In this document: positions 44,143-63,730 of the stretch, one piece after another
Layout: each line of letters begins with the position of its first letter
Numbering within the stretch: position 1 is the first letter of the stretch
Assembly: GCA_020063565.1 (NCBI GenBank)
Contig: JAICDB010000011.1
Coordinates: 1-64,000 of the forward strand
Source: Clostridiales bacterium
GTDB lineage: Bacteria; Bacillota; DSM-16504; Desulfitibacterales; JAICDB01
Length of the DNA: 64,000 nucleotides
Direction of reading: 5' to 3'
Notes under the pieces: generated by a model
Seen by the model: the letters and a program-made list of their open reading frames with translations, nothing else
Told to the model about the DNA's origin: nothing
Database searches by the model: none
Made by a program: the position numbers and the translations under genes

Positions 44143-44159
44143 AGTGAAAAATTAATATT

Positions 44160-44420
44160 TTATGAAGCAAGTGGTACTTTATAGGAAGTACTAAAAGGGA
44201 ATCCGGTTAGAATCCGGAGCGGTCCCGCCACTGTAAGGGGAAGCTTTCTTGCATTTGGCCACTGCCCAGCACTTAATTTGGCTGTAACTTTGTGTTTACT
44301 TATTACTCGCAACTACAGGTGAAAGTATTGAGTGAACCAATAAGTTAGATTAGATTAAGTGCTGGGTGGGAAGGCGCAAGGATAAGCTGTGAACCCGAGC
44401 CAGGAAACCTGCTTGTTTCT
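44160..44420 (+). promoter_or_regulatory. Cobalamin riboswitch 1 with an enlarged peripheral arm
   Basis: Core motifs are GGGAATCCGG, CCGGAGCGGTCCCGCCACTG, GGGAAGGCGCAAGG, GTGAACCCGAGCC and the B12 box AGCCAGGAAACCTGC (44399-44413). The aptamer matches the one at 63540 except that a peripheral hairpin (CCGAG-loop-CTCGG there) is replaced by a 102-base palindromic element at 44265-44366. A terminator follows at 44477. It should switch off the downstream surface-protein operon when cobalamin is plentiful. Confidence 0.95.
44265..44366. mobile_element. Palindromic element family 2, copy A, inside riboswitch 1
   Basis: 102 bases with 13-base perfect terminal inverted repeats CCCAGCACTTAAT / ATTAAGTGCTGGG and no coding capacity. 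Ends and length match copy B at 54166-54268, which has CCCGGCACTTAGT ends. The internal CTGYAGTT region of B is weakly similar to the reverse complement of A. It forms the tip of a riboswitch arm. Confidence 0.6.
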
Positions 44421-44476
44421 AGTTACCGTTTACACCCACGGTAGATGGGGAAGGATGGTGTTGATAAGCCTATTTA

Positions 44477-44525
44477 AACCCTTTTTATTCCCTTCTCTGG
44501 GTGGTAAAAAGGGTTGTTTATTTAA
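44477..44525 (+). terminator. Expression-platform terminator of cobalamin riboswitch 1
   Basis: AACCCTTTTTA pairs with TAAAAAGGGTT, followed by GTTTATTTA. The same design follows the riboswitch at 63540. Confidence 0.8.
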
Positions 44526-44535
44526 AATTGAAAAG

Positions 44536-44676
44536 TCAGAATAGGTGCTTTACCCCGAGGGGTAAGGCTTAAATGAATCCGGTGAAAATCCGGAGCGAAA
44601 CTGTGAGGGATAGCAGCATTCAAAAAAAGGAGAATGAACTTGAGTCTGCAGAGATTCCCGAGCCAGTAAACAGCCT
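44536..44676 (+). promoter_or_regulatory. Cobalamin riboswitch 2 (compact variant)
   Basis: A second, shorter aptamer lies 10 bases after the first terminator: AATAGGTGCTTTACC, TGAATCCGGTGAAAATCCGG, GCGAAACTGTGAGGGATAGC and the variant B12 box CCGAGCCAGTAAACAGCC (44658-44675). It lacks the GGGAAGGCG arm of riboswitch 1, so it looks like the compact Cbl-II type. The class call is inference. Confidence 0.85.
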
Positions 44677-44733
44677 ATTCAAACCACAGCTTTTTATTTA
44701 GGAGGTGGTTTGAGTAGGCTGTTTTTGTTTTAA
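44669..44733 (+). terminator. Terminator overlapping the B12 box of riboswitch 2
   Basis: AACAGCCTATTCAAACCAC pairs with GTGGTTTGAGTAGGCTGTT (one mismatch), followed by TTTGTTTT. Its left arm is the end of the B12 box, so ligand binding and terminator formation are directly linked. Confidence 0.85.
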
Positions 44734-44781
44734 AAAACTTTGAGAGCTTAAAAGTCACATTGGGTTAGGGGGGAGTAAGAA

Positions 44782-47700
44782 ATGAATTTATTTATTAGTA
44801 CATATAAGGATTTTGTTACTAAGGCACTATTAGTAACTTTATTAACTATAGTTTTATTTGCAGTTCCATTATTTATTGAAGGATTGAATGATGAAAAGGC
44901 ATTGGCAGTTGTGGGTAGTGTTTATAACGACTTGGCAACTCAAGCAGTACGTAACAACTATGATTTATACAAAAATGGAACAAGTTTTAGTGCATATGAC
45001 GCATATATATTAAGTGCAGCAGGAGCAGATATAGAGACATGGACATACGATGGTTCGAATGTAAAGGCAGATGTAATAGCCTTAATGGATGAAACAATAG
45101 CAGATCCTGATGAAAAGACAACCGACTGGCTTGGAAATGAAGTATATGCAAAATCAGCTTCAAGAGTAGCGCGAGAATATCTTGCGGCAGAGAGCTGGGG
45201 AGAAACTGATAGAGCTGAAAACTTGCTGAACATTATAATAAACAGGCAGACAGCAAGTGGAGACGGTTCAATAGACGGGAATGCATTTAGCGATTTGGCT
45301 GCCTTTGAGGCACTGGGTAGAGCCGGAGTTATAGACCGGATAGATACATCGAAAGCCATAAGTTATATATTGGCCAATCAAGACACAAACACAGGAGCAT
45401 GGACATCTTCCTGGAATGACTTCATGGCAACAGCCCAGGCAGTAAGAACGCTGGAATATCTGAAAAGTTATGCCGGCGAACAGGCGACAGAAGTACAGGC
45501 AGCAATTGATAGTGGACTGGCATATATGAAAAGTATGCAGCAACCAAACGGCAGTTTGCAAAAAGGTGCAGGCGGCCAATGGCCGGATGACCCGGTTATA
45601 GACACGGCAGAAGCGATATATACCCTGGATCTATTGGGAATAGACCCTGCAACATGGGAAAGCGAAGCAGGAAAAACTCCGGTGGATTACATGCTGGAAG
45701 AAGCATTAAATGACGACAGGACATTTGGAAGCACAGGGAATCTAATGGATAACACATGGGCAATAGATGCTTATCTTAAGTTAGGCGCAAGTATTGATGC
45801 CGGTGCCATACTGGGAATAAAGGTAACGCCTGAGAGTGCTGAAATCATTGAAGGTGAAACTCAGCAATATACGGCAATAGCATATCAGTTTAACGGAACC
45901 ACTACAGATATCAGTAATAGTGCCAGCTGGAGCACGGGAGATACCGGAATTGCCACAGTAAATGATACTGGACTGGTAACAGGAGTAAGTTCAGGAGAAA
46001 CGGTTGTTACCGCAATATATCAGGGTATTAACGGTAGTGGCAACGTTAATGTTACCGGTGAGAGTAACGGTGGAGATATCCCGGAACCAAATTCTATTAC
46101 TGTGGAGATTGAAGTAATAGGAAAAAATAATGACGTATTATTTGGACCCGATGATGTAACCATTTATGAGACTGATGAGTATGGCTTTACTGCTTTGGGA
46201 GCACTAGACGCTACAGGATTGCACTGGGAATTTTCAGATGACTGGGATTATTTTATAGAAAAAATTGGAGAATACAGAAACCAAGGTCTTAATGGATGGA
46301 TGTATAAAGTAAATGATGAAGTACCTACTGTACTTGCTCATCGAAAAACAGTTAGAGATGGAGATGAAATAATTTGGTGGTACAGTACGGATGAAGATGA
46401 AATGCCAGGTGTTGAAACTAGTGATGATTCGGAAGATATAATTGACGATCCTGATGCAAACGACTCTGAAGTTGCAGACGCTGTAAATGAATTAGTAGAT
46501 AATTTAGATGAATTAGATGATATTGATGAACTTATTAGTTCTGCTGGAGAAGCTGCTGGGCTTTTAGAAAAAGCCTTAGCTAGAATAGAATCGGAAGAAG
46601 CAATTACAATAATTGCAGACAACAGTACCAGACTCTTGGAAGCTTTGTCCGATTCTATAGAAAAGGCAGCAGATGAAGAAACTAGAACAAACCTAAAAGA
46701 AACTACTATTAATGTGGTGGATACTGTATTAAAAATAATGGAAAAGCTAGTTGATGAATCTAAACTGGATGATGTAACTAACAAATTAATTGAATCAGCA
46801 AGTGAACTAGCTAGCGGATTAAGCAAAAACGATGCTGCAGTAATAAAAGCAGAAGCAGTTAAAGTAGCAGAAAAGGCAATTGAGAAAGCCGGTACTGACA
46901 GATTAGAGGAAGATGAAATAACGGTTGAAGGTAACAAAGCTAAAGCAGAGGTTAATCTTGAACGCCTTGTTGAAAAAATTACTAAGGTAATTAATAAAGC
47001 AGAAGAAATGGACTATAAACTCAGGGAAAATGCAATTGAATCAAATAAAGTATTGCAAAAGAAGGTTGCTGTAGAAGTTCCTGTTACAAATGACGTAGAT
47101 GAAATAGAAACAAATATTCCATCAGGAGTAATAAGTACATTAGCGGAAAATGAAATAGATATGGTAGAAATAAGATCAGAAATTGCAGATTTTGGAATTA
47201 CCAGCAATACCTTTGGTGAATCAGCAAAGGGCAAAGATATTTCTCTGAGTGCCAAAAGGGTAAACAGACAAGATTTGCCGGAGGCAGTACGAAATGAGAT
47301 ACCGGACAATAGTACGGTAGTTGACTTAAATGCGGCAGTAGGTGGAGAAAAGGTTAATAAGTTTAATGAGCCTGTAGAAGTGGCAGTAGCCTATACATTA
47401 AAAGAAGATGATGATCCCGAAACTATTTCAGTATTTTTACTTAAAGAAGATGGCACCATTGAGCCTGTTGGCGGTAAATATGACCCCATAACAGGCAAAG
47501 TAAGATTTAAAACCAATCATTTCAGTAAATATTTCGCTAAAGCTGCAATTAAAGAATTTGCTGATCTGGATAAATATCCGTGGGCAGAAGAAGAAATCCA
47601 AATCCTTGCAGGAAAAGGAATAATAAACGGCAGAAGCAAAGGTAGCTTTGAGCCTGCTGCAGACATTACCAGGGCGGAATTCTCTGCGCTTCTGGTACGG

Positions 47701-48093
47701 ATGTTGAAGTTAGATGGAAACGATATAGAAATACCTTTTAAGGACGTGGTAAGTGATGCCTGGTACTCGGATGAAGTAGCTGCAGCTTATGCAAGTAAAA
47801 TAGTTAACGGCAAAAGTGCTACAGAGTTTGACCCTAATGGAAAGATAACGAGACAGGAAGTGGCTGTAATGATAACAAGGGTTTTAAATAAAGAAGGTTA
47901 CAAAGAAGCACAAGAATCAGAACTGGATGTATTCAGCGATGCAAGTGAAATCGCTCCCTGGGCAAAGGCGGGAGTAGCCATGGCTGTTCGGGAAGAAATC
48001 GTAAACGGCATGGGAGATGGTACTTTTGCTCCTCAAGCTAATGCCAGTAGAGCGCAGGCTGCGGTAATACTGTATAGATTGTTTATTAAGTAG
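44782..48093 (+). CDS. S-layer-anchored transcobalamin-like protein (toroid + Big2 + DUF4430 + SLH)
   Basis: 1103 residues. A signal/anchor segment (about 12-35) is followed by an alpha/alpha-toroid of prenyltransferase-type repeats (about 60-345; SYILANQDTNTGAWTSSWND, YMKSMQQPNGSL). Next come a Big2 domain (about 350-425), a DUF4430 domain (about 438-545; GLNGWMYKVNDEVP, VRDGDEIIWWYS), an acidic helical region (about 560-780), a beta-rich part (to about 925) and three SLH repeats binding the wall. Toroid plus DUF4430 is the layout of human transcobalamin and intrinsic factor. Directly behind tandem cobalamin riboswitches, it is predicted to bind corrinoids at the cell surface. Confidence 0.85.
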   Translation: MNLFISTYKDFVTKALLVTLLTIVLFAVPLFIEGLNDEKALAVVGSVYNDLATQAVRNNYDLYKNGTSFSAYDAYILSAAGADIETWTYDGSNVKADVIALMDETIADPDEKTTDWLGNEVYAKSASRVAREYLAAESWGETDRAENLLNIIINRQTASGDGSIDGNAFSDLAAFEALGRAGVIDRIDTSKAISYILANQDTNTGAWTSSWNDFMATAQAVRTLEYLKSYAGEQATEVQAAIDSGLAYMKSMQQPNGSLQKGAGGQWPDDPVIDTAEAIYTLDLLGIDPATWESEAGKTPVDYMLEEALNDDRTFGSTGNLMDNTWAIDAYLKLGASIDAGAILGIKVTPESAEIIEGETQQYTAIAYQFNGTTTDISNSASWSTGDTGIATVNDTGLVTGVSSGETVVTAIYQGINGSGNVNVTGESNGGDIPEPNSITVEIEVIGKNNDVLFGPDDVTIYETDEYGFTALGALDATGLHWEFSDDWDYFIEKIGEYRNQGLNGWMYKVNDEVPTVLAHRKTVRDGDEIIWWYSTDEDEMPGVETSDDSEDIIDDPDANDSEVADAVNELVDNLDELDDIDELISSAGEAAGLLEKALARIESEEAITIIADNSTRLLEALSDSIEKAADEETRTNLKETTINVVDTVLKIMEKLVDESKLDDVTNKLIESASELASGLSKNDAAVIKAEAVKVAEKAIEKAGTDRLEEDEITVEGNKAKAEVNLERLVEKITKVINKAEEMDYKLRENAIESNKVLQKKVAVEVPVTNDVDEIETNIPSGVISTLAENEIDMVEIRSEIADFGITSNTFGESAKGKDISLSAKRVNRQDLPEAVRNEIPDNSTVVDLNAAVGGEKVNKFNEPVEVAVAYTLKEDDDPETISVFLLKEDGTIEPVGGKYDPITGKVRFKTNHFSKYFAKAAIKEFADLDKYPWAEEEIQILAGKGIINGRSKGSFEPAADITRAEFSALLVRMLKLDGNDIEIPFKDVVSDAWYSDEVAAAYASKIVNGKSATEFDPNGKITRQEVAVMITRVLNKEGYKEAQESELDVFSDASEIAPWAKAGVAMAVREEIVNGMGDGTFAPQANASRAQAAVILYRLFIK

Positions 48094-48118
48094 TTAGTTT
48101 TAACATGTCAGTATAATA

Positions 48119-48165
48119 CACTGTCGGTCTGATTAATGTCAACCGGCAGTGCATGTCTATTTTTC
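48119..48165 (+). terminator. Hairpin after the large surface-protein gene
   Basis: CACTGTCGGT pairs with ACCGGCAGTG, then CATGTCTATTTTT. It may reduce rather than end transcription into the ECF genes, since no promoter is obvious downstream. Confidence 0.6.
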
Positions 48166-48183
48166 AAAATATGGAGGTTAATT

Positions 48184-49176
48184 ATGAATATTAAGAAGTT
48201 TTACTACCTGGTATTAATAACATTCTTGGTTATGATGGCCATAACCGGATGCGGTGGTCAGACAGAAACAGAACCAAATGCAGCAGATGTTTCCCACTCT
48301 GAAGGAAAAACTGCTTTTACAGGAAAAGTTAAATTGTTGGTAACGAAAGATTTTGGCAGTGAAACTTTATTTGAAAAGAAAGTAGAAATTAAAGAAGACC
48401 GGACTGTTATAGATTTATTAAAGGCTAACTTAGAAATAACCACCAAATGGGATGGTGATTTTGTTAACGGAATCAACGGTTTGGAGTCCGAAAACGGAGG
48501 GGTCTCGGGTAACAGGTTTGACTGGTTTTATTATATTAACGGTATCTGTGCTGATGTAGGGGCTGCCGGTTATGAATTGAACCCGGGAGATATTGTCTGG
48601 TGGGATTATCATGCCTGGAAGAGCATGGGATCTGCAAATTCGGCGGTTATCGGCTGTTTTCCTGAACCGTTTATCCACGGTTACCGGGGAAATGTTGGAA
48701 CTACTACTATTATCACTTCTGAGGAGAACAACAGCCTGGCAAATGATGTACAAAAAGCTTTAGAGAAGAATGGAGTTACTTCTATAGAGAGCAAGACATT
48801 GAACGAAGATTTTCTTCAAAACAGGCAGGGTCCAACAATTGTAATGGGAGAATGGAGTGAACTTAAAGAGTTAACTTATCTGGAAAAGTTAAACAAGGCG
48901 TACAAAAAGACGGGTACCAATGTTCATTTTACTGATAAAGGCTTGGAATTATTGGATTACAGCGGGAAAGCGGCCAGAACCGTTACCGAAAGTGCCGGAG
49001 TTATAGTTTCTACCGGAGCGGGATTGGGGGATGAGAGCCCTCTGTGGCTAATTGTCGGTAATAACCGGGAAGGTTTGGAACAAGCTGTAGAAGTACTTGT
49101 TGAAAATCCGGACAAAATTTCAAAGGCTTATGGGGTAGCGGTGGTTTCCGGGGAAATTGTCAGACTGCCTATATAA
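48184..49176 (+). CDS. DUF4430 lipoprotein, putative corrinoid-binding partner
   Basis: 330 residues from ATG 48184, preceded by ATGGAGG; an earlier in-frame start has no ribosome site. A lipobox, MMAITGCGG, gives Cys22 as the lipid-modified residue. The DUF4430 domain (about 45-145) shows RFDWFYYINGICADVGAAG and LNPGDIVWWDYHAW. The rest (145-330) is an alpha/beta domain of unknown family (TIVMGEWSEL, PLWLIVGNN). Membrane-tethered next to EcfT, it could hand corrinoid from the surface protein to the ECF importer. It resembles the isolated beta-domain of transcobalamin. Confidence 0.83.
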   Translation: MNIKKFYYLVLITFLVMMAITGCGGQTETEPNAADVSHSEGKTAFTGKVKLLVTKDFGSETLFEKKVEIKEDRTVIDLLKANLEITTKWDGDFVNGINGLESENGGVSGNRFDWFYYINGICADVGAAGYELNPGDIVWWDYHAWKSMGSANSAVIGCFPEPFIHGYRGNVGTTTIITSEENNSLANDVQKALEKNGVTSIESKTLNEDFLQNRQGPTIVMGEWSELKELTYLEKLNKAYKKTGTNVHFTDKGLELLDYSGKAARTVTESAGVIVSTGAGLGDESPLWLIVGNNREGLEQAVEVLVENPDKISKAYGVAVVSGEIVRLPI

Positions 49177-49197
49177 TAAAAAGGACGGGGATAGGTA

Positions 49198-50112
49198 ATG
49201 CTTGTATATCGAGAGAAAGATAACCTTATTCATAAACTTCACCCGTTTACACTTATATTCTATATTGGCATAGTTTTTCTTTTATCTCTGGTTTTTAACC
49301 ACCCAATTTACCTGCTGGGGTTATTTTTGGCAGTTGGAGCGGTTATTATTGCTGGCGGCCATTTTTCGGAATGGAAGGTCTACCTGAAGTTCAGTGTAAC
49401 CATGATCATAATAATTATGGTTATTAATGCCATTTTTGTACAGGCCGGAGATACCGTACTACTTGTAGGACCCAGGGTTCCGGTGCTGGGGAAGATAGTA
49501 ATTACCTTGGAGGCACTGGCATTCGGGGCAGGAATGGGTATACGACTTTTAGTTATGATAAGCATCTTTTGCCTTTATACTTATGCAGTGCATCCGGATA
49601 AAGCATTAAAGCTGTTCAGCAGATTGGGCAACAAATCTGTACTGGTTATTACTCTTTCTACCCGCTTGTTTCCCCTCATGGTAAGGGACTTTCAGAGAAT
49701 TACCGAAGTACAGCGCTGCCGGGGGGTAAAGTTGGATACGGGAAGATGGTGGGAGCGTGCCAAAAACCTGCTTCCTGTAATCAGCGTGCTTTTATTGTCC
49801 TGCCTTGAACGTTCTCTGCAGCTGGCCGAATCAATGCATGCCAGGGGTTACGGTAGCGGGAGCAGGTCTTATTACAGTAGGGAATTATGGCGCCCTCGAG
49901 ATTATCTCATTCTATCTGCGTTGATTATTGGTTTGATAAGCGGGCTCTGGGCTGCCTTAAAGGGCTGGTCGACATACAGCTATTACCCCAGGCTGACTTT
50001 ATTTAACCCGGGAGAGTTGAAAACAGCAGTTATAGTAGTAATAACACTGGCAGTTCCTGCTATTTTAAACTGGGGGTGGAAGAAATGGCCTTTATTAAGA
50101 TCAAAAATTTGA
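49198..50112 (+). CDS. ecfT: ECF transporter T component
   Basis: 304 residues, an integral membrane protein with five to six helices. The two coupling motifs are VQRCRGVKLD (about residue 174) and MHARGYGSGSR (about 217), which bind the ATPase grooves. It couples ATP hydrolysis to movement of the S component. The ATPase gene overlaps its 3' end by 28 bases. Its place between DUF4430 and toroid genes under cobalamin riboswitches points to a dedicated corrinoid ECF system. Confidence 0.9.
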   Translation: MLVYREKDNLIHKLHPFTLIFYIGIVFLLSLVFNHPIYLLGLFLAVGAVIIAGGHFSEWKVYLKFSVTMIIIIMVINAIFVQAGDTVLLVGPRVPVLGKIVITLEALAFGAGMGIRLLVMISIFCLYTYAVHPDKALKLFSRLGNKSVLVITLSTRLFPLMVRDFQRITEVQRCRGVKLDTGRWWERAKNLLPVISVLLLSCLERSLQLAESMHARGYGSGSRSYYSRELWRPRDYLILSALIIGLISGLWAALKGWSTYSYYPRLTLFNPGELKTAVIVVITLAVPAILNWGWKKWPLLRSKI

Positions 50113-51782
50113 CATATTATTACCCTGACAACAAAAATCCGGCTCTTGATAGCATAAGTCTGGAGATTCCAGAGGGACAGTTTGTACTTGTGGTCGGGGG
50201 GTCCGGAAGCGGAAAATCTACCTTAATCCGTGCCATAGCAGGTTTGGTTCCTGATTTTTATGGCGGAACTTATGGCGGAAAGGTTTATCTAGATAATAAG
50301 GAGATTAAGCAGCTGGACAGACGCAGTCTTGTGCAGCAGGTAGGGATGGTTTTTCAGGATCCCGAGAGCCAGCTGGTAATGACTAACGTGGAGCAGGAAG
50401 TAGCCTTCGGTCTGGAGAATTTAGGCTTATCTAATAGTTTAATGAAACGGAGGGTAATGGAGGTTACCAGTGCCATGGCATTATCTGACTATTTTCACAG
50501 TTTTACCCCGGAACTTTCAGGCGGGCAAAAGCAAAAAGTGGCACTGGCATCTGTTCTGGCAATGCAGCCCGATATATTACTCCTGGATGAGCCTACTTCT
50601 CAGCTTGATCCAATTGCCGGCGAAGAGATCCTTACCATGATAAGGCGTCTAAATGAAGAAAACGGTATTACGGTAGTTCTGATTGAGCAGCGCCTGGAAA
50701 GATGCTTTCACCTGGCTGACAGGGTACTGGTTATGGATAAGGGAAAAATTATTTTTGATCACCATGCGCCTGATACAATATCCCGCTGGGCGGTAAAAAA
50801 TAACACCTCCTTTATTCCGCCACTGGCCAAATTATTTGCAGGAGTGGGTTTTTCTGAAGTTCCTACAACTGTTAAGCAGGGAAGGGAAATTCTAAAATCC
50901 TACTACCCGTTATTAAACTTTAGTACTGAGACACCAACACGTGCTGAGAAAACAAAAAAATCTCAAAAATCCTCTGGCGAAACTATTATTGATATTCAGA
51001 ATCTCTGGTTTACTTATCCTAATGGTCAAGAAGCATTAAAAAATATCAATCTTAAAATTATTTCCGGGGATTTTGTAGTAATTATGGGGGAAAATGGAGC
51101 CGGAAAAACTACCCTGATGAAAAACATAAATGGCTTGCTTAAACCCGGCAGGGGGCGGGTTAAGGTATTAAATCGGGATACCAAAAAATTATCTGTAGAA
51201 GAACTGGCTTCCACTGTGGGGAATTTATCCCAGGACCCCAATGATTATTTATTCTTACCTACCGTAGGAGAAGAACTGTTCTTTACTTTAAAAAATTTAG
51301 GCTTAACAGATGACGGGAATTGTGAAGAAATCCTGGACAGACTGCAGTTAACCCCTTATGTAGACTCTAACCCGCGGGATTTAAGTACGGGGGAACGCCA
51401 AAGGGTGGCTCTGGCGTCCGTTTTGGCGGCAAAACCCAAATTACTCCTTCTGGATGAGCCTACCCGTGGACTTGATTACCGTCTTAAGGAGGAACTGGGT
51501 GATATACTATTGCAACTGCAAAGGGAAGGAATAGCTATTCTAGTTATTACCCATGATGTGGAATTTGCTGCTGAATATGCCGATGATATTGTCTTGATGG
51601 CAGAAGGAAGCATTATTGCCAGGGGAAACAAGTATGAAATGCTATCCGGTTCTACCTTTTATTCTCCCCAGATCAGCAAGTTGTTCAATAATATTGCTGA
51701 TAATGTAGTAACTTTAAATCAGGGTAAGGAAATATTGAGCAAGATAATGGAATTGAGTAAAGATGAAGCTCTTTCCGTATAA
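50085..51782 (+). CDS. ECF transporter ATPase, two ABC domains in one chain
   Basis: 565 residues from ATG 50085 (GGGGGTGGAAG upstream). Domain 1: GGSGSGKSTLIRAIAG, VFQDPESQLVM, LSGGQKQKVALAS and LLLDEPTSQLDP. Domain 2 (from about residue 305): GENGAGKTTLMKNING, LSQDPNDYLFL, LSTGERQRVALAS and LLLDEPTRGLDY. Both nucleotide sites have Walker A, signature and Walker B. It is EcfA1-EcfA2 fused, as in several dedicated ECF systems. It drives import with the adjacent EcfT and S component. Confidence 0.92.
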   Translation: MAFIKIKNLTYYYPDNKNPALDSISLEIPEGQFVLVVGGSGSGKSTLIRAIAGLVPDFYGGTYGGKVYLDNKEIKQLDRRSLVQQVGMVFQDPESQLVMTNVEQEVAFGLENLGLSNSLMKRRVMEVTSAMALSDYFHSFTPELSGGQKQKVALASVLAMQPDILLLDEPTSQLDPIAGEEILTMIRRLNEENGITVVLIEQRLERCFHLADRVLVMDKGKIIFDHHAPDTISRWAVKNNTSFIPPLAKLFAGVGFSEVPTTVKQGREILKSYYPLLNFSTETPTRAEKTKKSQKSSGETIIDIQNLWFTYPNGQEALKNINLKIISGDFVVIMGENGAGKTTLMKNINGLLKPGRGRVKVLNRDTKKLSVEELASTVGNLSQDPNDYLFLPTVGEELFFTLKNLGLTDDGNCEEILDRLQLTPYVDSNPRDLSTGERQRVALASVLAAKPKLLLLDEPTRGLDYRLKEELGDILLQLQREGIAILVITHDVEFAAEYADDIVLMAEGSIIARGNKYEMLSGSTFYSPQISKLFNNIADNVVTLNQGKEILSKIMELSKDEALSV

Positions 51783-51870
51783 GTATAAATTAGTGATAGG
51801 ATGTTATTTATGGATAAGCTCAGCATCTTAATGATAGCTACACTAAGAAATTATAAGGAGGAAAATCTTG

Positions 51871-53394
51871 ATGAGGAAGAGAAAAATTCTAATTTGCCTG
51901 AGTTTAGCCTTATTGTTTGTGTTTATTTTTACCGGTACTTCCTTTGCAAATGACTCCTATCCTGACCAGAAAGTATCTCAAAGCATAAAAAAAGCGGTAA
52001 GCTACCTGCATAAATATCAGAATGAAGATGGTGGTTTTAGCAGCAAAAAAGGGGGCCCGAGCAGCAGGGCTTTAACAAGCTGGGTGGTTATGGCTATTGT
52101 AGCTGCGGGAGAAGATGTTACCGGTAGTGCATGGGAACCTTCCGGTAAAAATCCCATTGATTATCTGAAAAATTGTAACAAAGAACTGGAAGAAACCTGT
52201 GATTATGCACGTTTGTTATTGAGCTTAACTGCCGCAAAGCAGGGGACAATGTATAGGGGAATTGATTTGGCTGCGAAAATAGCTTCTTTTCAGCAGGAAA
52301 GCGGCCAGTTTTTCCAGCCTGCCTGGAATGAGCACGGGATGATTAATTCCCACATGTGGTCTATTTTAGCGCTTGCTTCGGCCGGATATGATATTCCTGA
52401 TAAAGATAAGGCTAAAAAGTGGTTGCTGAAGCATCAAAATGAAGACGGTGGTTTTGGCTGGGTTGAAGGAACATATAGCGACACGGATGACACTGGTGTG
52501 GCCATTCAAGCTCTTGTTATGCTGGGAGAGGATCCTGCAACTTCCTCAGCTATTAAAAAAGCTCTTAAATATTTAAAAGACTGTCAGCAGAAAGATGGAG
52601 GGTTTAGCTGTGGCAATGACTGGATGGGAAATGAGTCCAACAGTGCTTCGGATGCCTGGGTACTGCAGGGACTCTTTGCAGCAGGTGAAAACCCTGTAAG
52701 TGAAAAATGGTCGGTAAACGGAAAAAATCCGGTATCTCACCTTTTAAGCTTGCAAAACAGTGACGGCTCTTTTTACTGGAAAGAAGGGGTAACTTCCTCA
52801 CCAGTTAAAATGACTGCTTTTGCCATCATGGCTTTAGCCGGGAAACCTCACCCCGTGAATATTGATTATTGCGGTAAAAGCATGTTTTCCGATTTGTCTT
52901 CTTCTCACTGGGCTTATGCTTCCATTGTGAAATTGGTCAACGCCAAAGTATTGAGCGGGTACCCGGATGGGACCTTTAAGCCGGATAAATCCGTAACCAG
53001 GGCTGAGTTTACAAAATTTATGGTTTGCGGTCTTGGTTTAGAAAATGTGGTAAGTTATTCTGCAGGAAAGTTTCCGGATATACCGCAAGGACACTGGGCT
53101 CGTAAATATATTTCAATAGCAGTAGATAAGGAATATGTCGAAGGACGTCCGGGTGGAAGATTTGATCCAAACGGAAAAATAACCGGAGCAGAACTGGCTA
53201 CCATGCTGGTGAGGGCTTTACCGCCGGAGAAAAAGTCCCAAATGACAGAAGGACCCTACTGGTATTCGGGCAATGTGAAACTCGCCAGAGAGAACGGCCT
53301 TTTATATCCCGGCTTTCAGGCCGGAGAAAATGCCACCAGAGCACAGTGTGCATACAGTATAGTACGTTTGAAAAATCTGAGGGATAGTATATGA
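51871..53394 (+). CDS. S-layer-anchored alpha/alpha-toroid protein (transcobalamin alpha-domain-like)
   Basis: 507 residues, start ATG 51871 (AAGGAGG upstream). A signal peptide (about 1-27, TGTSFAN) is followed by a toroid of prenyltransferase/squalene-cyclase-type repeats (about 38-325) seen as YLHKYQNEDGGFS, WLLKHQNEDGGFG, YLKDCQQKDGGFS and LLSLQNSDGSF. Three SLH repeats follow (about 333-505; the first, YPDGTFKPDKSVTRAEF, is clear and the third weaker). No enzymatic DxDD motif of cyclases is apparent, so binding is more likely than catalysis. It lacks DUF4430, which is supplied separately by the lipoprotein three genes upstream. Confidence 0.85.
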   Translation: MRKRKILICLSLALLFVFIFTGTSFANDSYPDQKVSQSIKKAVSYLHKYQNEDGGFSSKKGGPSSRALTSWVVMAIVAAGEDVTGSAWEPSGKNPIDYLKNCNKELEETCDYARLLLSLTAAKQGTMYRGIDLAAKIASFQQESGQFFQPAWNEHGMINSHMWSILALASAGYDIPDKDKAKKWLLKHQNEDGGFGWVEGTYSDTDDTGVAIQALVMLGEDPATSSAIKKALKYLKDCQQKDGGFSCGNDWMGNESNSASDAWVLQGLFAAGENPVSEKWSVNGKNPVSHLLSLQNSDGSFYWKEGVTSSPVKMTAFAIMALAGKPHPVNIDYCGKSMFSDLSSSHWAYASIVKLVNAKVLSGYPDGTFKPDKSVTRAEFTKFMVCGLGLENVVSYSAGKFPDIPQGHWARKYISIAVDKEYVEGRPGGRFDPNGKITGAELATMLVRALPPEKKSQMTEGPYWYSGNVKLARENGLLYPGFQAGENATRAQCAYSIVRLKNLRDSI

Positions 53395-54116
53395 AGAATA
53401 AGCCTATTGTAGTTGTAATAAGTGTTATCGTACTGCTGCTCATTGTCAGCATAGTTCCTGAGAACCCTCTCTATAACATTAACTGGGCGGTCTTTTCAGC
53501 TCTTTTTATTAGTCTGGCAATGCTGGCATTTTTCTGGCGTTTTGAAAGAAAGGGCATAAATTCCAAAGAAGTTACCCTTATTGCAACACTGGCCTCCCTG
53601 GCCGCCATTTCCAGGGTACCCTTTGCTGTAATAATGAGCCTTCAGCCTACTACTTTTATGGTTATGATTACCGGGTACGTATTTGGGCCGCAGACCGGCT
53701 TTCTAGTGGGAGCGGTAGCTGCCCTTGTATCCAACTTTTTTATAGGGCAGGGACCATGGACACCCTGGCAAATGTTCTGCTGGGGAATGTGCGGTGTAGC
53801 GGCGGCGCTGCTGGCAAAAAAATACAAGGGTTTTAAATTAACTCCATTTGCGATTCTCGGAGGGGTTTGCGGTTACCTCTTTGGCTGGATCATGAACATC
53901 TGGCACTGGGTAGGGTTCGTTTATCCTTTAACTTGGAAAACTTTTTTAGCAACATATGCTGCCAGTTTTCCCTTTGATACTCTGCATGCCCTGGGAAATG
54001 TAGTATTTTCAATTGTGTTTGGGAAGTCGTTTTACCAGGTTTTGCTGCGGTTTAGGAAGAAGATTACACCAACTGTTTTGATAACTAAGATCGTTACCGG
54101 TACTCATAAGCAATAA
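53391..54116 (+). CDS. ECF transporter S component, probably corrinoid-specific
   Basis: 241 residues with six or seven helices. SLQPTTFMVMITGYVFGP, LVGAVAALVSNFFIGQGPW and TPWQMFCWGMCGVAAALL fit the S-component group that includes predicted and proven cobalamin (CbrT-type) carriers. Its ATG overlaps the stop of the toroid gene (ATGA). With EcfT and the double ATPase it completes an importer. Corrinoid specificity is inferred from riboswitch control, the DUF4430/toroid proteins and the cbiZ gene that follows, not from residues I can name. Confidence 0.82.
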   Translation: MKNKPIVVVISVIVLLLIVSIVPENPLYNINWAVFSALFISLAMLAFFWRFERKGINSKEVTLIATLASLAAISRVPFAVIMSLQPTTFMVMITGYVFGPQTGFLVGAVAALVSNFFIGQGPWTPWQMFCWGMCGVAAALLAKKYKGFKLTPFAILGGVCGYLFGWIMNIWHWVGFVYPLTWKTFLATYAASFPFDTLHALGNVVFSIVFGKSFYQVLLRFRKKITPTVLITKIVTGTHKQ

Positions 54117-54132
54117 ATTTCTTAGGAAAAAT

Positions 54133-54340
54133 ATTTCAAGGCGGCGAAGGCTTTGAGCAGCGGAGCCCGGCACTTAGTCCGATGATTGATTTTTATTATA
54201 CCATTAGCTGCAGTTCGACTGATAAATTAATTGTAATTATGTGGCTAACAGCTAAACTAAGTGCCGGGTGAGCAGCACAGAAGCCGAGCTAACGCAGAAA
54301 TTCGAAGTGGATTGCGCGCGGACTTTTCGAACATCCTTTT
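54133..54340. repeat. Interspersed repeat family 1, copy 8, carrying an inserted element
   Basis: Starts at TTTCAAGGCGGCGAAGG (5' end missing) and ends with GGACTTTTCGAACATCCTTTT. The GTAC hairpin of the full copy is replaced by a 103-base palindromic element (54166-54268); AGCAGCGGAG stands on its left and AGCAGCACAG on its right. It fills the gap between the S-component gene and cbiZ. Confidence 0.8.
54166..54268. mobile_element. Palindromic element family 2, copy B
   Basis: 103 bases bounded by CCCGGCACTTAGT / ACTAAGTGCCGGG (13-base inverted ends), noncoding, and sitting exactly where the host repeat normally has a small hairpin. Termini and size match copy A inside cobalamin riboswitch 1. 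Confidence 0.6.
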
Positions 54341-54371
54341 AAAGATTAGTGGTGAAGAGGAGGAAACAAGT

Positions 54372-55487
54372 TTGATGATTTTTGAAACTGCTGCCGGAGA
54401 CCAGGTTCATCGCTATAATAAATCTATTGTTGTTCTCTTTAAAGGCAAAAGAAAAGTTCTCAGTACTTCTTATATAAACGGAGGATATAGAGAGGACTTA
54501 ACAGCAGTTTTTAATCATGACTGCAATCCTGGAGCCGGAATGGCATGCAAGTTAAAAGCTCCTACGTACGCTGAACATATGACGCTAATTGCAGAAGAGT
54601 TGGGCCTTGATCCTGAATATACAGCCGGAATTACTACAGCCGCTTCCATGGATAAAGTAGCTATTAAAGTTGAGAGGTATAAGGATATAACAGTTACAGC
54701 TATTGTTACCGGAGGAGTAGAAGTAAATGGTGGTAGAGTTGGAGATCCCGCTTCATATGATGAGAGAGACGGCAAGATCCGGACTAAACATGGAACTATT
54801 AATATTATATTGGAGATCAATGCTAACCTTTCTGCTTTTACCCTTACCAGAGCATTAGTTACCTGTACGGAAGCTAAAACTGCTGCCCTACAGGAGTTAA
54901 TGGCAGGTAGTAATTACTCAACGGGAATAGCTACGGGCTCAGGTACTGACGGTACAATAATAATCAGCAACGTCGATTCACCTGCTCATTTAACCGATGC
55001 CGGAAAGCATTCTAAACTTGGAGAATTAATTGGAAAAGCAGTAAAAGGCGCTGTTAAGGAGGCCTTATACAAACAAACGGGTCTTAGTCCGGAATATCAA
55101 CACAGTATACTGAAAAGGTTCAAAAGATACGGTGTAAATGAAGAAAGTCTCTGGCGAAAGTATTTGCAAATGGAAGAAAACAATAGAGTAGATAAGCCTA
55201 ATTTTATTCATAATCTTCATGTTCTAGATGGAAAAGACAGCTTGGTAACATTTACCTCTTTGTATATTCATCTCCTGGACCAGTTGGAATGGCAGTTATT
55301 AAATAAGGAAGAGGTAAAGGAAGCTGCAGAGGTTATTCTGGCAAGCATGCAAAAAGCATTAGGTTTAAATGAAGATAATCTCCAACTTCCGCAACCGTCT
55401 GAAGCACAATTTCCTGAGCAGTTGATTGATTGTTTTGAAAAGCTTATAGCCCGGGTGGCGGGAGGATTTTCATATATAAAAACTTAA
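54372..55487 (+). CDS. cbiZ: Adenosylcobinamide amidohydrolase CbiZ, with a C-terminal extension
   Basis: 371 residues from TTG 54372 (or ATG 54375); GAGGAGGA lies eight bases upstream, so the longer frame running back into the repeat is not used. The CbiZ domain occupies about residues 1-225: VLSTSYINGGYREDL, TAIVTGGVEVNGGRVGDPAS and SGTDGTIIISN. CbiZ removes the aminopropanol side chain of adenosylcobinamide or pseudocobalamin so the ring can be rebuilt, an archaeal-type salvage step. About 140 further helical residues of unknown role follow. Last gene of the corrinoid cluster. Confidence 0.88.
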   Translation: MMIFETAAGDQVHRYNKSIVVLFKGKRKVLSTSYINGGYREDLTAVFNHDCNPGAGMACKLKAPTYAEHMTLIAEELGLDPEYTAGITTAASMDKVAIKVERYKDITVTAIVTGGVEVNGGRVGDPASYDERDGKIRTKHGTINIILEINANLSAFTLTRALVTCTEAKTAALQELMAGSNYSTGIATGSGTDGTIIISNVDSPAHLTDAGKHSKLGELIGKAVKGAVKEALYKQTGLSPEYQHSILKRFKRYGVNEESLWRKYLQMEENNRVDKPNFIHNLHVLDGKDSLVTFTSLYIHLLDQLEWQLLNKEEVKEAAEVILASMQKALGLNEDNLQLPQPSEAQFPEQLIDCFEKLIARVAGGFSYIKT

Positions 55488-55912: not shown

Positions 55913-55978
55913 TAAGTTGTCCTATTTTAGTGTAAAATAATGGTAGAAATTAACATAAGTGAATCGAGGGATTTATAT

Positions 55979-56281
55979 ATGTCTAAATCCTCTAAAATTC
56001 CTCAGTGGTTAGAAAAATTTTTCTGGGATGTCAAAGTGGAAGAATTAGATTTACAAAAGCATAGGATCTTTATTATAGAAAGGCTATTAAATGAAGGAAA
56101 TCACCGGTCTTTGGAATGGATTTTTAAAAACTATTCTCAAGAGACTATTCAAGAAGCCGTAATGACCAGCCGGGGACTTTCTTTGAAAACTGCCAGGTGC
56201 TGGCAAAATTATTTTGGGCTAAGAGAGGATGAAATGCGGTGTTTTGGAGTACTCTTGACAGACCTCGGCAGATTTTATTAA
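55979..56281 (+). CDS. DUF6922-like antitoxin partner of the AbiEii toxin
   Basis: 100 residues from ATG 55979, with GAGGG ten bases upstream; an earlier in-frame ATG at 55940 has no site. Helical protein containing WLEKFFWDVKVEELDLQKH and TARCWQNYFGLREDEMRCF. Such short proteins accompany AbiEii-type nucleotidyltransferases and are presumed antitoxins. The toxin gene starts within its last 43 bases. The family name is from memory of the pattern and should be treated as probable. Confidence 0.65.
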   Translation: MSKSSKIPQWLEKFFWDVKVEELDLQKHRIFIIERLLNEGNHRSLEWIFKNYSQETIQEAVMTSRGLSLKTARCWQNYFGLREDEMRCFGVLLTDLGRFY

Positions 56282-56877
56282 GAAAAATAGTAGAAAATAC
56301 GCCGGTTCCAAATAGTTATTTAGCGGGAGGAACGGGATTGGCTCTGATGTTTGGTCATCGAGAGTCAGTTGATTTTGATTGGTTTACGCCAAATCAATTT
56401 GATAACGAAGATTTATACCGCAGGCTTGCACAGATAGGTAAAGTAATGATTACTGAAACTAAAAAAGGGACATTTCATGGATTTGTAGATGATATACAAG
56501 TCACGTGGCTATGGTATCCTAATCCGCTTATAGAACCTTTAGTCAAAGTAAAAGATATGCCCGGTTTGAGTTTGGCTTCTGTAATGGATATAGGACTCAT
56601 GAAATGGGTTGCAGTCAGTCAGCGAGGAGCTCGAAAAGACTTTATAGATCTTTATATGATTTGTCAAAAAGGAATTAATCTGGAATCCATGTTAGCTTTT
56701 TTACCTGAAAAATATCCGGAAGCTAAGATTAACTATTATCATATGATAAAAAGTCTCTCTTATTTTGAAGATGCTGAACGAGAAATTATGCCTATTATGA
56801 AGATTGACATAGATTGGGAAAAAATTAAAGATTATTTTCTGCAAGTTCAAAAAAAATTATTGGGTAAATTTTGTTAA
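56239..56877 (+). CDS. AbiEii/AbiGii family nucleotidyltransferase toxin
   Basis: 212 residues from GTG 56239 (AGAGAGGA upstream), overlapping its partner by 43 bases. The nucleotidyltransferase motif is present: YLAGGTGLALMFGHRESVDF followed by DWF, the GG-T...D-x-D pattern that binds metal and NTP. AbiE toxins modify tRNA or other targets and give abortive infection or plasmid stability. A remnant of a second copy of this gene lies at 61172-61220, so the cassette was once duplicated. Confidence 0.82.
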   Translation: MFWSTLDRPRQILLRKIVENTPVPNSYLAGGTGLALMFGHRESVDFDWFTPNQFDNEDLYRRLAQIGKVMITETKKGTFHGFVDDIQVTWLWYPNPLIEPLVKVKDMPGLSLASVMDIGLMKWVAVSQRGARKDFIDLYMICQKGINLESMLAFLPEKYPEAKINYYHMIKSLSYFEDAEREIMPIMKIDIDWEKIKDYFLQVQKKLLGKFC

Positions 56878-63451: not shown

Positions 63452-63539
63452 GGCTAGAAACTGGTATATCTATACCTAAATTTTCTATTGCAATAGCTTG
63501 CCAATGCTTGTAAACTTATAATACAAAGTGAATTAATGT

Positions 63540-63730
63540 AAATAAACAAGTGGTACTCTTTCAACCTCTTAGGAGTACGAAAAGGGAATCCGGTGTAAAT
63601 CCGGAGCGGTCCCGCCACTGTGAGGGGGAGCCCCTTGCAAGAAGCCACCGAGCAACTACTCGGGAAGGCGCAAGGTAAGGCAGTGAACCCGAGCCAGGAA
63701 ACCTGCTTGTTTATTCAGCCATTTGCACCC
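63540..63730 (+). promoter_or_regulatory. Cobalamin riboswitch 3, upstream of the nrdD-like gene
   Basis: GGGAATCCGG, CCGGAGCGGTCCCGCCACTG, GGGAAGGCGCAAGG, GTGAACCCGAGCC and the B12 box AGCCAGGAAACCTGC (63692-63706) make a full class I aptamer, closely similar to riboswitch 1 but with a short CCGAG/CTCGG arm. It should repress a B12-independent reductase when cobalamin is present. Confidence 0.95.

Follow-up and report, generated by a model that had tools for sequence, protein, structure and literature searches.

The animal carriers of vitamin B12, intrinsic factor, transcobalamin and haptocorrin, combine two domains on a single chain, an alpha/alpha barrel at the N-terminus and a DUF4430 beta-domain at the C-terminus. 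In Bacteroides, BtuG and BtuH are surface lipoproteins that bind B12; together with BtuJ, they have different folds and belong to a TonB-dependent outer-membrane route. In transporters of the energy-coupling factor (ECF) type, the S component is taken as the substrate-binding protein. The surface gathering of scarce corrinoids by Gram-positive-type anaerobes is, to our knowledge, poorly known. Here we describe an operon of a Clostridiales bacterium, located in a stretch of 64,000 nucleotides (assembly GCA_020063565.1, contig JAICDB010000011.1, positions 1 to 64,000; "the window"), that encodes surface proteins with alpha/alpha toroid and DUF4430 domains next to an ECF importer. We read it, with a probability of about 85%, as an operon by which a Gram-positive-type cell captures and imports corrinoids under riboswitch control, and in which carrier-like surface proteins feed the ECF importer. 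Gene products are named below by the first window position of their genes.

The articles cited by accession are represented by excerpts, and what we say of them refers to those excerpts. ECF-CbrT of Lactobacillus delbrueckii was found experimentally to carry cobalamin (Cbl) and cobinamide, both of which CbrT binds; for CbrT, the use of one ECF module in common with other S components is predicted, and nrdJ and pduO lie beside cbrS-cbrT (PMC5997447). The window operon shares with ECF-CbrT a CbrT-homologous S component, EcfT and two ATPase domains, but has its own EcfT, a fused EcfA and putative extracellular capture proteins. Bacteroides BtuJ, as we propose for the window proteins, captures corrinoids at the surface ahead of a membrane importer, but its family is DUF4465, not DUF4430 (PMC12751083). 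DUF4430 has been placed in the C-terminus of TCN proteins (PMC4350170). A Lacticaseibacillus rhamnosus protein is annotated as an "additional lipoprotein component of putative cobalamin ECF transporter", and a DUF4430 protein encoded near rtpR is listed separately in the same source (PMC9963975); we infer that one gene underlies both entries. That annotation concerns the small protein only, and the excerpt contains neither a toroid partner nor a transcobalamin-like fold nor a mechanism. Two elements of our reading are already known from these sources, namely the link between a small lipoprotein and cobalamin ECF transport (PMC9963975) and the presence of DUF4430 in animal carriers (PMC4350170).

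All parts of the operon were found between 44782 and 55487 of the + strand, behind two cobalamin riboswitches (Table 1; Pfam, NCBIfam and Rfam scans). A preliminary description, made by a model from the sequence alone, had listed the riboswitches and each of the genes that run in Table 1 from the DUF4430 lipoprotein to CbiZ, and every item was recovered at or near the place given to it. The same description had portrayed the 44782 product, a protein of 1103 amino acids, as a wall-anchored toroid joined to DUF4430 and SLH repeats. Pfam bore out DUF4430 and the SLH repeats (5.1e-41, three stretches) but made no toroid call in this product at E ≤ 0.01. The toroid was recovered with a profile of the 33-sequence family, which matched squalene-hopene cyclase in the PDB (2.3e-30), and in an AlphaFold model; the Big_2 domain had not been named.

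The AlphaFold model of window positions 44905-46446 had a mean predicted local distance difference test score (pLDDT) of 91.5 and a predicted template modelling score (pTM) of 0.76, and contained twelve helices, an immunoglobulin-like (Ig) domain and a beta-domain. When the model was searched with Foldseek against 350,542 PDB chains, haptocorrin ranked first (4KKI, E 5.8e-9) and transcobalamin second and third (8IXT, 8IXU). The top 14 also held 7QBF, 2BB5, 7QBE and the intrinsic factor entries 3KQ4 and 2PMV; the Ig domain of the model would account for the remaining six, which were Big_2-CBM56 entries and segments of Leptospira LigA. A second, partly independent structural test was provided by L143, a homologue from a Syntrophomonadaceae metagenome-assembled genome (MAG) that is 52% identical and lacks the Ig domain (AlphaFold pLDDT 90.4, pTM 0.70). 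Its first 15 Foldseek ranks were exclusively transcobalamin, haptocorrin and intrinsic factor (E 5.2e-11 to 6.7e-8), the next match being at 4.6e-5. The isolated transcobalamin beta-domain 5NO0 was matched by this model at rank 47 (E 2.1e-3, TM-score 0.65 on the target, 3.2 Å). The carrier alignments comprised 519-533 columns for the window model and 429-454 columns for L143, lengths which imply that both domains were covered.

These proteins differ from the animal carriers in several respects. The bacterial proteins are attached, either to the wall through SLH repeats or to the membrane, many members have an Ig domain inserted, the halves can sit on separate chains, and an ECF importer rather than an endocytic receptor adjoins them. 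Toroid and DUF4430 abut without Big_2 in several homologues. The animal carriers are soluble and secreted, whereas the 44782 product has three SLH repeats; because these anchor it, we do not class it with the animal carriers, and it may work like a wall-fixed carrier.

Table 1. Positions of the riboswitches, genes and domains of the operon in the window.
Feature	Position	Strand	Evidence
Cobalamin riboswitch aptamer 1	44152..44430	+	RF00174, 105.8 bits, E 1.8e-25
Cobalamin riboswitch aptamer 2, more divergent	44526..44692	+	RF00174, 59.0 bits
Transcobalamin-like wall-anchored protein: N-terminal hydrophobic segment, toroid, Big_2, DUF4430, linker, 3 SLH	44782..48093	+	
Alpha/alpha toroid of 44782 product (corresponding to the alpha-domain of B12 carriers), 12 helices	44905..45780	+	AlphaFold residues 1-292; profile match
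Big_2 Ig-like domain, between toroid and DUF4430	45814..46023	+	PF02368 5.8e-10
DUF4430 (beta-domain) of 44782 product	46087..46389	+	PF14478 7.5e-11; model residues 395-495
DUF4430 lipoprotein, ITGC lipobox and extra C-terminal part	48184..49176	+	PF14478 7e-15; lipobox read from translation
EcfT	49198..50112	+	PF02361 6.6e-17
Fused EcfA-EcfA'	50085..51782	+	TIGR04520 2.7e-124, TIGR04521; two stretches
Separate toroid-SLH surface protein	51871..53394	+	PF00432 3.7e-17, PF13243 4.8e-16, PF00395 4.3e-27
ECF S component, CbrT family	53391..54116	+	PF12822 1.6e-10; PDB 6FNP E 2.4e-15
CbiZ, adenosylcobinamide amidohydrolase	54261..55487	+	PF01955 9.5e-58, profile 2-191 of 191

The S component of the operon gave a single convincing match in the PDB, to L. 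delbrueckii CbrT (6FNP, residues 59-224); at E ≤ 10 the search returned one other, unrelated entry (0.17), S components for riboflavin, thiamine and folate being absent. Riboflavin and folate S-component models of Pfam and NCBIfam were weaker than the general ECF model or as ambiguous. An S component of another specificity would, according to the preliminary description, have spoken against its reading; the protein is CbrT-like. The last gene of the operon encodes CbiZ, a family which, by its name and known activity, acts on adenosylcobinamide-type compounds. CbiZ was present in 6/85 of the DUF4430 loci and 4/80 of the S-component loci described below, a low frequency that makes it an optional accessory.

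CbiZ bears on the most durable of the rival explanations, according to which the target is a corrinoid precursor or related compound, such as cobinamide, a lower-ligand base or a cobalt complex, and not a complete cobamide. The substrate class of CbiZ would fit this, as would the cobalamin riboswitches of the genome that precede cobalt-importer and corrinoid-synthesis genes. CbrT, however, binds Cbl as well as cobinamide (PMC5997447), and the fold of the surface proteins matches proteins that hold whole cobalamin. We regard a target confined to precursors as rather unlikely, and the matter is a question of range more than of a different system.

The two RF00174 aptamers precede the operon on its own strand, as in a member of a cobalamin regulon, with scores of 105.8 and 59.0 bits against a gathering score of 31.5. 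A hairpin whose tail is rich in T lies behind aptamer 1 at about 44477-44522, and behind aptamer 2 there is a terminator-like stem of 20 bp, in which 44668-44687 pair with 44705-44724 (fold z -6.28). A terminator pattern scan, limited to loops of 3-8, listed neither of them. The 5' arm of the terminator-like stem consists of bases that also form the 3' strand of the closing helix of aptamer 2 (window 44526-44730), and aptamer closure and terminator are therefore mutually exclusive. As judged from the sequence, this arrangement would fit an ON-type switch, which is unusual for an uptake operon, and the two aptamers are a possible tandem of opposite sense.

We then examined the conservation of the locus in a sample of 299 genomes from the phylum, taken to be Bacillota in view of the named relatives of the S component, 90 of which, the window genome included, contain DUF4430. 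Riboswitch adjacency was counted among the matches listed, at 148 DUF4430 places in 85 other genomes, with the two places of the window genome excluded. The expectation of the preliminary description that homologous loci lie next to cobalamin riboswitches was confirmed: at 106/148 places, in 60/85 genomes, RF00174 lay on the strand of DUF4430 in the 6 kb upstream, compared with 9/148 places for the 6 kb downstream and 0/148 for the other strand when 6 kb were counted in both directions. DUF4430 and the cobalamin riboswitch adjoin each other more often than expected by chance. Co-occurrence in the genome as a whole was rejected as evidence, since a cobalamin riboswitch was present somewhere in 59/60 DUF4430-negative genomes (60 of the 209 negatives served as control) and in 81/89 DUF4430 genomes. 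Because its presence is near-universal in the negatives too, only the local adjacency was used.

The S component proved to be closely tied to DUF4430. An S-component profile, A2 (E ≤ 1e-15), found a match in 82/89 other DUF4430 genomes (48/50 and 34/39) versus 1/60 DUF4430-negative genomes, and in 59/66 DUF4430 genomes when the 23 that had supplied rows of the profile were removed. This sequence comparison strengthens the tie of DUF4430 to the S component, not the predicted binding step.

Two sets of loci were compared. The first consisted of 85 DUF4430 loci and, with the window, was used to build the domain profiles; the second consisted of the best 80 of at least 579 stretches recovered from named genomes with the S component as sole query, many on short contigs. 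The sets are not independent, as stretches of 500 bases in 5/80 loci of the second are identical to stretches in the first. The closest named relatives of the S component among the matches listed were Desulfallas, Syntrophomonadaceae and similar records, and some records of the second set carry, as deposited, the MAG labels Chloroflexota, Thermoplasmatota, Armatimonadetes and Deltaproteobacteria. The order of the operon recurs in many of the 85 loci of the first set. DUF4430, toroid, S component and EcfT occurred together at 58/85 DUF4430 loci and 55/80 S-component loci. Among the 80 of the second set, DUF4430 was present at 73, a short DUF4430 gene at 72, EcfT at 72, the fused toroid-DUF4430 protein at 48 and a separate toroid at 34; a sequence resembling a B12 box (up to 2 mismatches, + strand) was found at 39/80.

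These counts bear on a second rival, in which the S component alone imports corrinoids and the toroid and DUF4430 proteins are surface proteins with another role, such as protein or sugar binding or S-layer architecture. It draws on the fact that corrinoid binding by these surface proteins is a prediction. We consider it distinctly unlikely: no other PDB entries match the two domains and their succession along the chain as well as the mammalian B12 carriers do, DUF4430 was present at 73/80 loci that had been found by the S component, and A2 in 82/89 DUF4430 genomes versus 1/60 without DUF4430.

The preliminary description had called it striking that the same domain pair occurs both fused and split in one operon. 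Both forms are present in the window, but the coexistence is not peculiar to it, being common in the family; toroid and DUF4430 were on separate chains only at 12/85 and 11/80 loci of the two sets. The alternation between fused and split forms argues that toroid and DUF4430 act together. A crude SLH-like motif was found in 82/108 fused proteins (both sets pooled). The DxDD sequence is the acid motif of class II cyclases, and a reading of the separate toroid protein as an enzyme, either a terpene cyclase or one of the prenyltransferase type, could appeal to the PF00432 and PF13243 matches of the 51871 product, to its DTDD, which resembles DxDD, and to the alignment of the separate toroids, in which the first and third motif positions and the following T are well kept (D204 96%, D206 92%, T208 94%). 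We find it highly improbable and rejected a class II terpene cyclase for the toroids, because DxDD is not kept across the family (full DxDD[TS] in 28/75 separate toroids and 8/108 fused proteins, both sets pooled) and the 51871 product is an SLH protein with one toroid inside a riboswitch-controlled importer operon.

The small DUF4430 proteins were also analyzed. The two operon copies were the only DUF4430 domains found in the window genome (2.36 Mb, 80.8% complete; the window lies on a contig of 131,895 bases). The C-terminal part of the lipoprotein, about residues 150-330 (window 48634-49173), gave no Pfam match, and a profile of this half matched at 25/86 loci, the window included. At locus L060, a small DUF4430 gene adjoins a CbrT relative (6FNP, E 5.3e-21), and the gene order at L117 is riboswitch, DUF4430, S component and PduO adenosyltransferase. 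The few neighbours scanned at L060 and L088 did not include nrdJ or pduO; they were a nickel-pincer isomerase at both loci and a short-chain dehydrogenase/reductase (SDR) and a biotin-type protein at L060.

Several observations weigh against a transcobalamin-like capture system. Whole-chain superposition on the carriers fails, with a root-mean-square deviation (rmsd) of 18.5-20.7 Å for the window model and 20.3-21.7 Å for L143, and stretches of pLDDT below 50 lie between the domains in both apo models. The superposition on transcobalamin foreseen in the preliminary description held in part: mammalian carriers were top-ranked and the alignments span both domains, but the whole chains stayed 18.5-21.7 Å apart. 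In the models, the placement of the domains differs from that in the closed holo carriers, while the domains and their order are the same, and the closed clamp of the animal carriers is not reproduced. A DUF4430 profile run against PDB sequences matched no transcobalamin at E ≤ 10, and single-sequence and profile searches of the PDB gave squalene-hopene cyclase, for the toroid, and Big_2, with no transcobalamin among the matches listed (best 60 of 76 matches for the family-profile search). Because the sequence profile missed transcobalamin, the link between DUF4430 and the C-terminal domain of the carriers, which had also been claimed at the outset, is drawn from the structural match to 5NO0 and from print (PMC4350170). 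At the level of loci, 42/148 DUF4430 places listed had no riboswitch within 6 kb upstream, some of them near contig ends, and 15/85 DUF4430 loci had no toroid. Four of the 85 (L056, L082, L090 and L094) were without toroid, S component and EcfT, and DUF4430 may do something else there; an A2-type S component was found elsewhere in three of these four genomes (G053, G140 and G169, not G187). Finally, the lipobox pattern was passed by only 25/72 short DUF4430 proteins; many of those failing it showed, by eye, a single N-terminal hydrophobic stretch. As a separate observation, the DUF4430 genes of L056, L090 and L094 adjoin dnaB, ychF or holA genes.

We propose the following mechanism for a corrinoid capture and import operon. 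Scarcity of corrinoid would relieve the riboswitch, at least aptamer 1, acting as an ordinary OFF type. Wall-held toroid-DUF4430 proteins, the 44782 product being held by its SLH repeats, would then bind corrinoids between the two domains, which would close around the ligand. The 51871 toroid-SLH protein and the 48184 lipoprotein with its DUF4430 are the same halves on two chains and may come together round a corrinoid nearer the membrane; the wall-bound toroid half and the lipid-anchored DUF4430 half may in this way form a second station. The corrinoid would be handed to the CbrT-type S component and taken up by a dedicated ECF transporter made of this protein, EcfT and the fused EcfA. Inside the cell, CbiZ may cleave the imported corrinoid for rebuilding. 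Corrinoid synthesis, cobalt importer and ThiC/BzaB-like genes stand behind cobalamin riboswitches in this genome, and imported corrinoids might therefore have their lower ligand replaced by one that the cell makes itself.

Other cobalamin riboswitches of the genome were found as follows (L and C numbers are our labels for loci and contigs). Behind those at C10:66505 and C10:108028 lie CbiJ-CbiM-CbiQ genes and a cluster for corrinoid synthesis (L126:7489-10091, L127:8510-19000), in which the genes scanned included CobB, CbiD, CbiL, CbiG, CbiJ and CobQ. With synthesis genes placed behind riboswitches, the organism probably makes corrinoids besides importing them. A ThiC-family protein behind a cobalamin riboswitch (L007:1765-3183) passed the ThiC model (599.8, cut-off 410) and scored marginally better with BzaB, a B12 lower-ligand protein, but under the cut-off (600.5 bits, cut-off 700). 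Another small ECF S component, with a neighbour of 257 amino acids, stands behind a cobalamin riboswitch at L005:2710-3228. A third riboswitch in the window (63531-63724, 119.9 bits) precedes the gene of the anaerobic ribonucleotide reductase NrdD (L126:3751-5775), a B12-independent enzyme, and the riboswitch at C3:104033-104306 is followed by the genes of an acetolactate synthase small subunit and an SNF-type symporter (L008:1501-3274). On the 3' side of the operon, window 55940-56877 holds an AbiEii-like nucleotidyltransferase gene, with the gene of a DUF6922 protein just upstream of the nucleotidyltransferase.

In the open-licence literature we found no paper on bacterial transcobalamin-like capture or on toroid-DUF4430 corrinoid binders, although an earlier prediction elsewhere is possible. 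The excerpts of PMC11477304, PMC2667541, PMC4751268 and PMC10327494 contain nothing on toroid-DUF4430 capture, and that of PMC4285132 describes a different, FepBCD-like corrinoid operon. A wider proposal, to which we give even odds, is that these proteins are prokaryotic transcobalamins, a widespread tethered toroid-DUF4430 clamp, fused or two-chain, that feeds an ECF importer, and that the animal carriers descend from it or share an ancestor with it.

The operon provides a proposed function for DUF4430 proteins and for the toroid-SLH proteins that adjoin them. If the reading is true, an extracellular capture stage would be added to ECF transport, and the architecture of intrinsic factor and transcobalamin would exist in prokaryotes, which would raise the question of the origin of the animal carriers.

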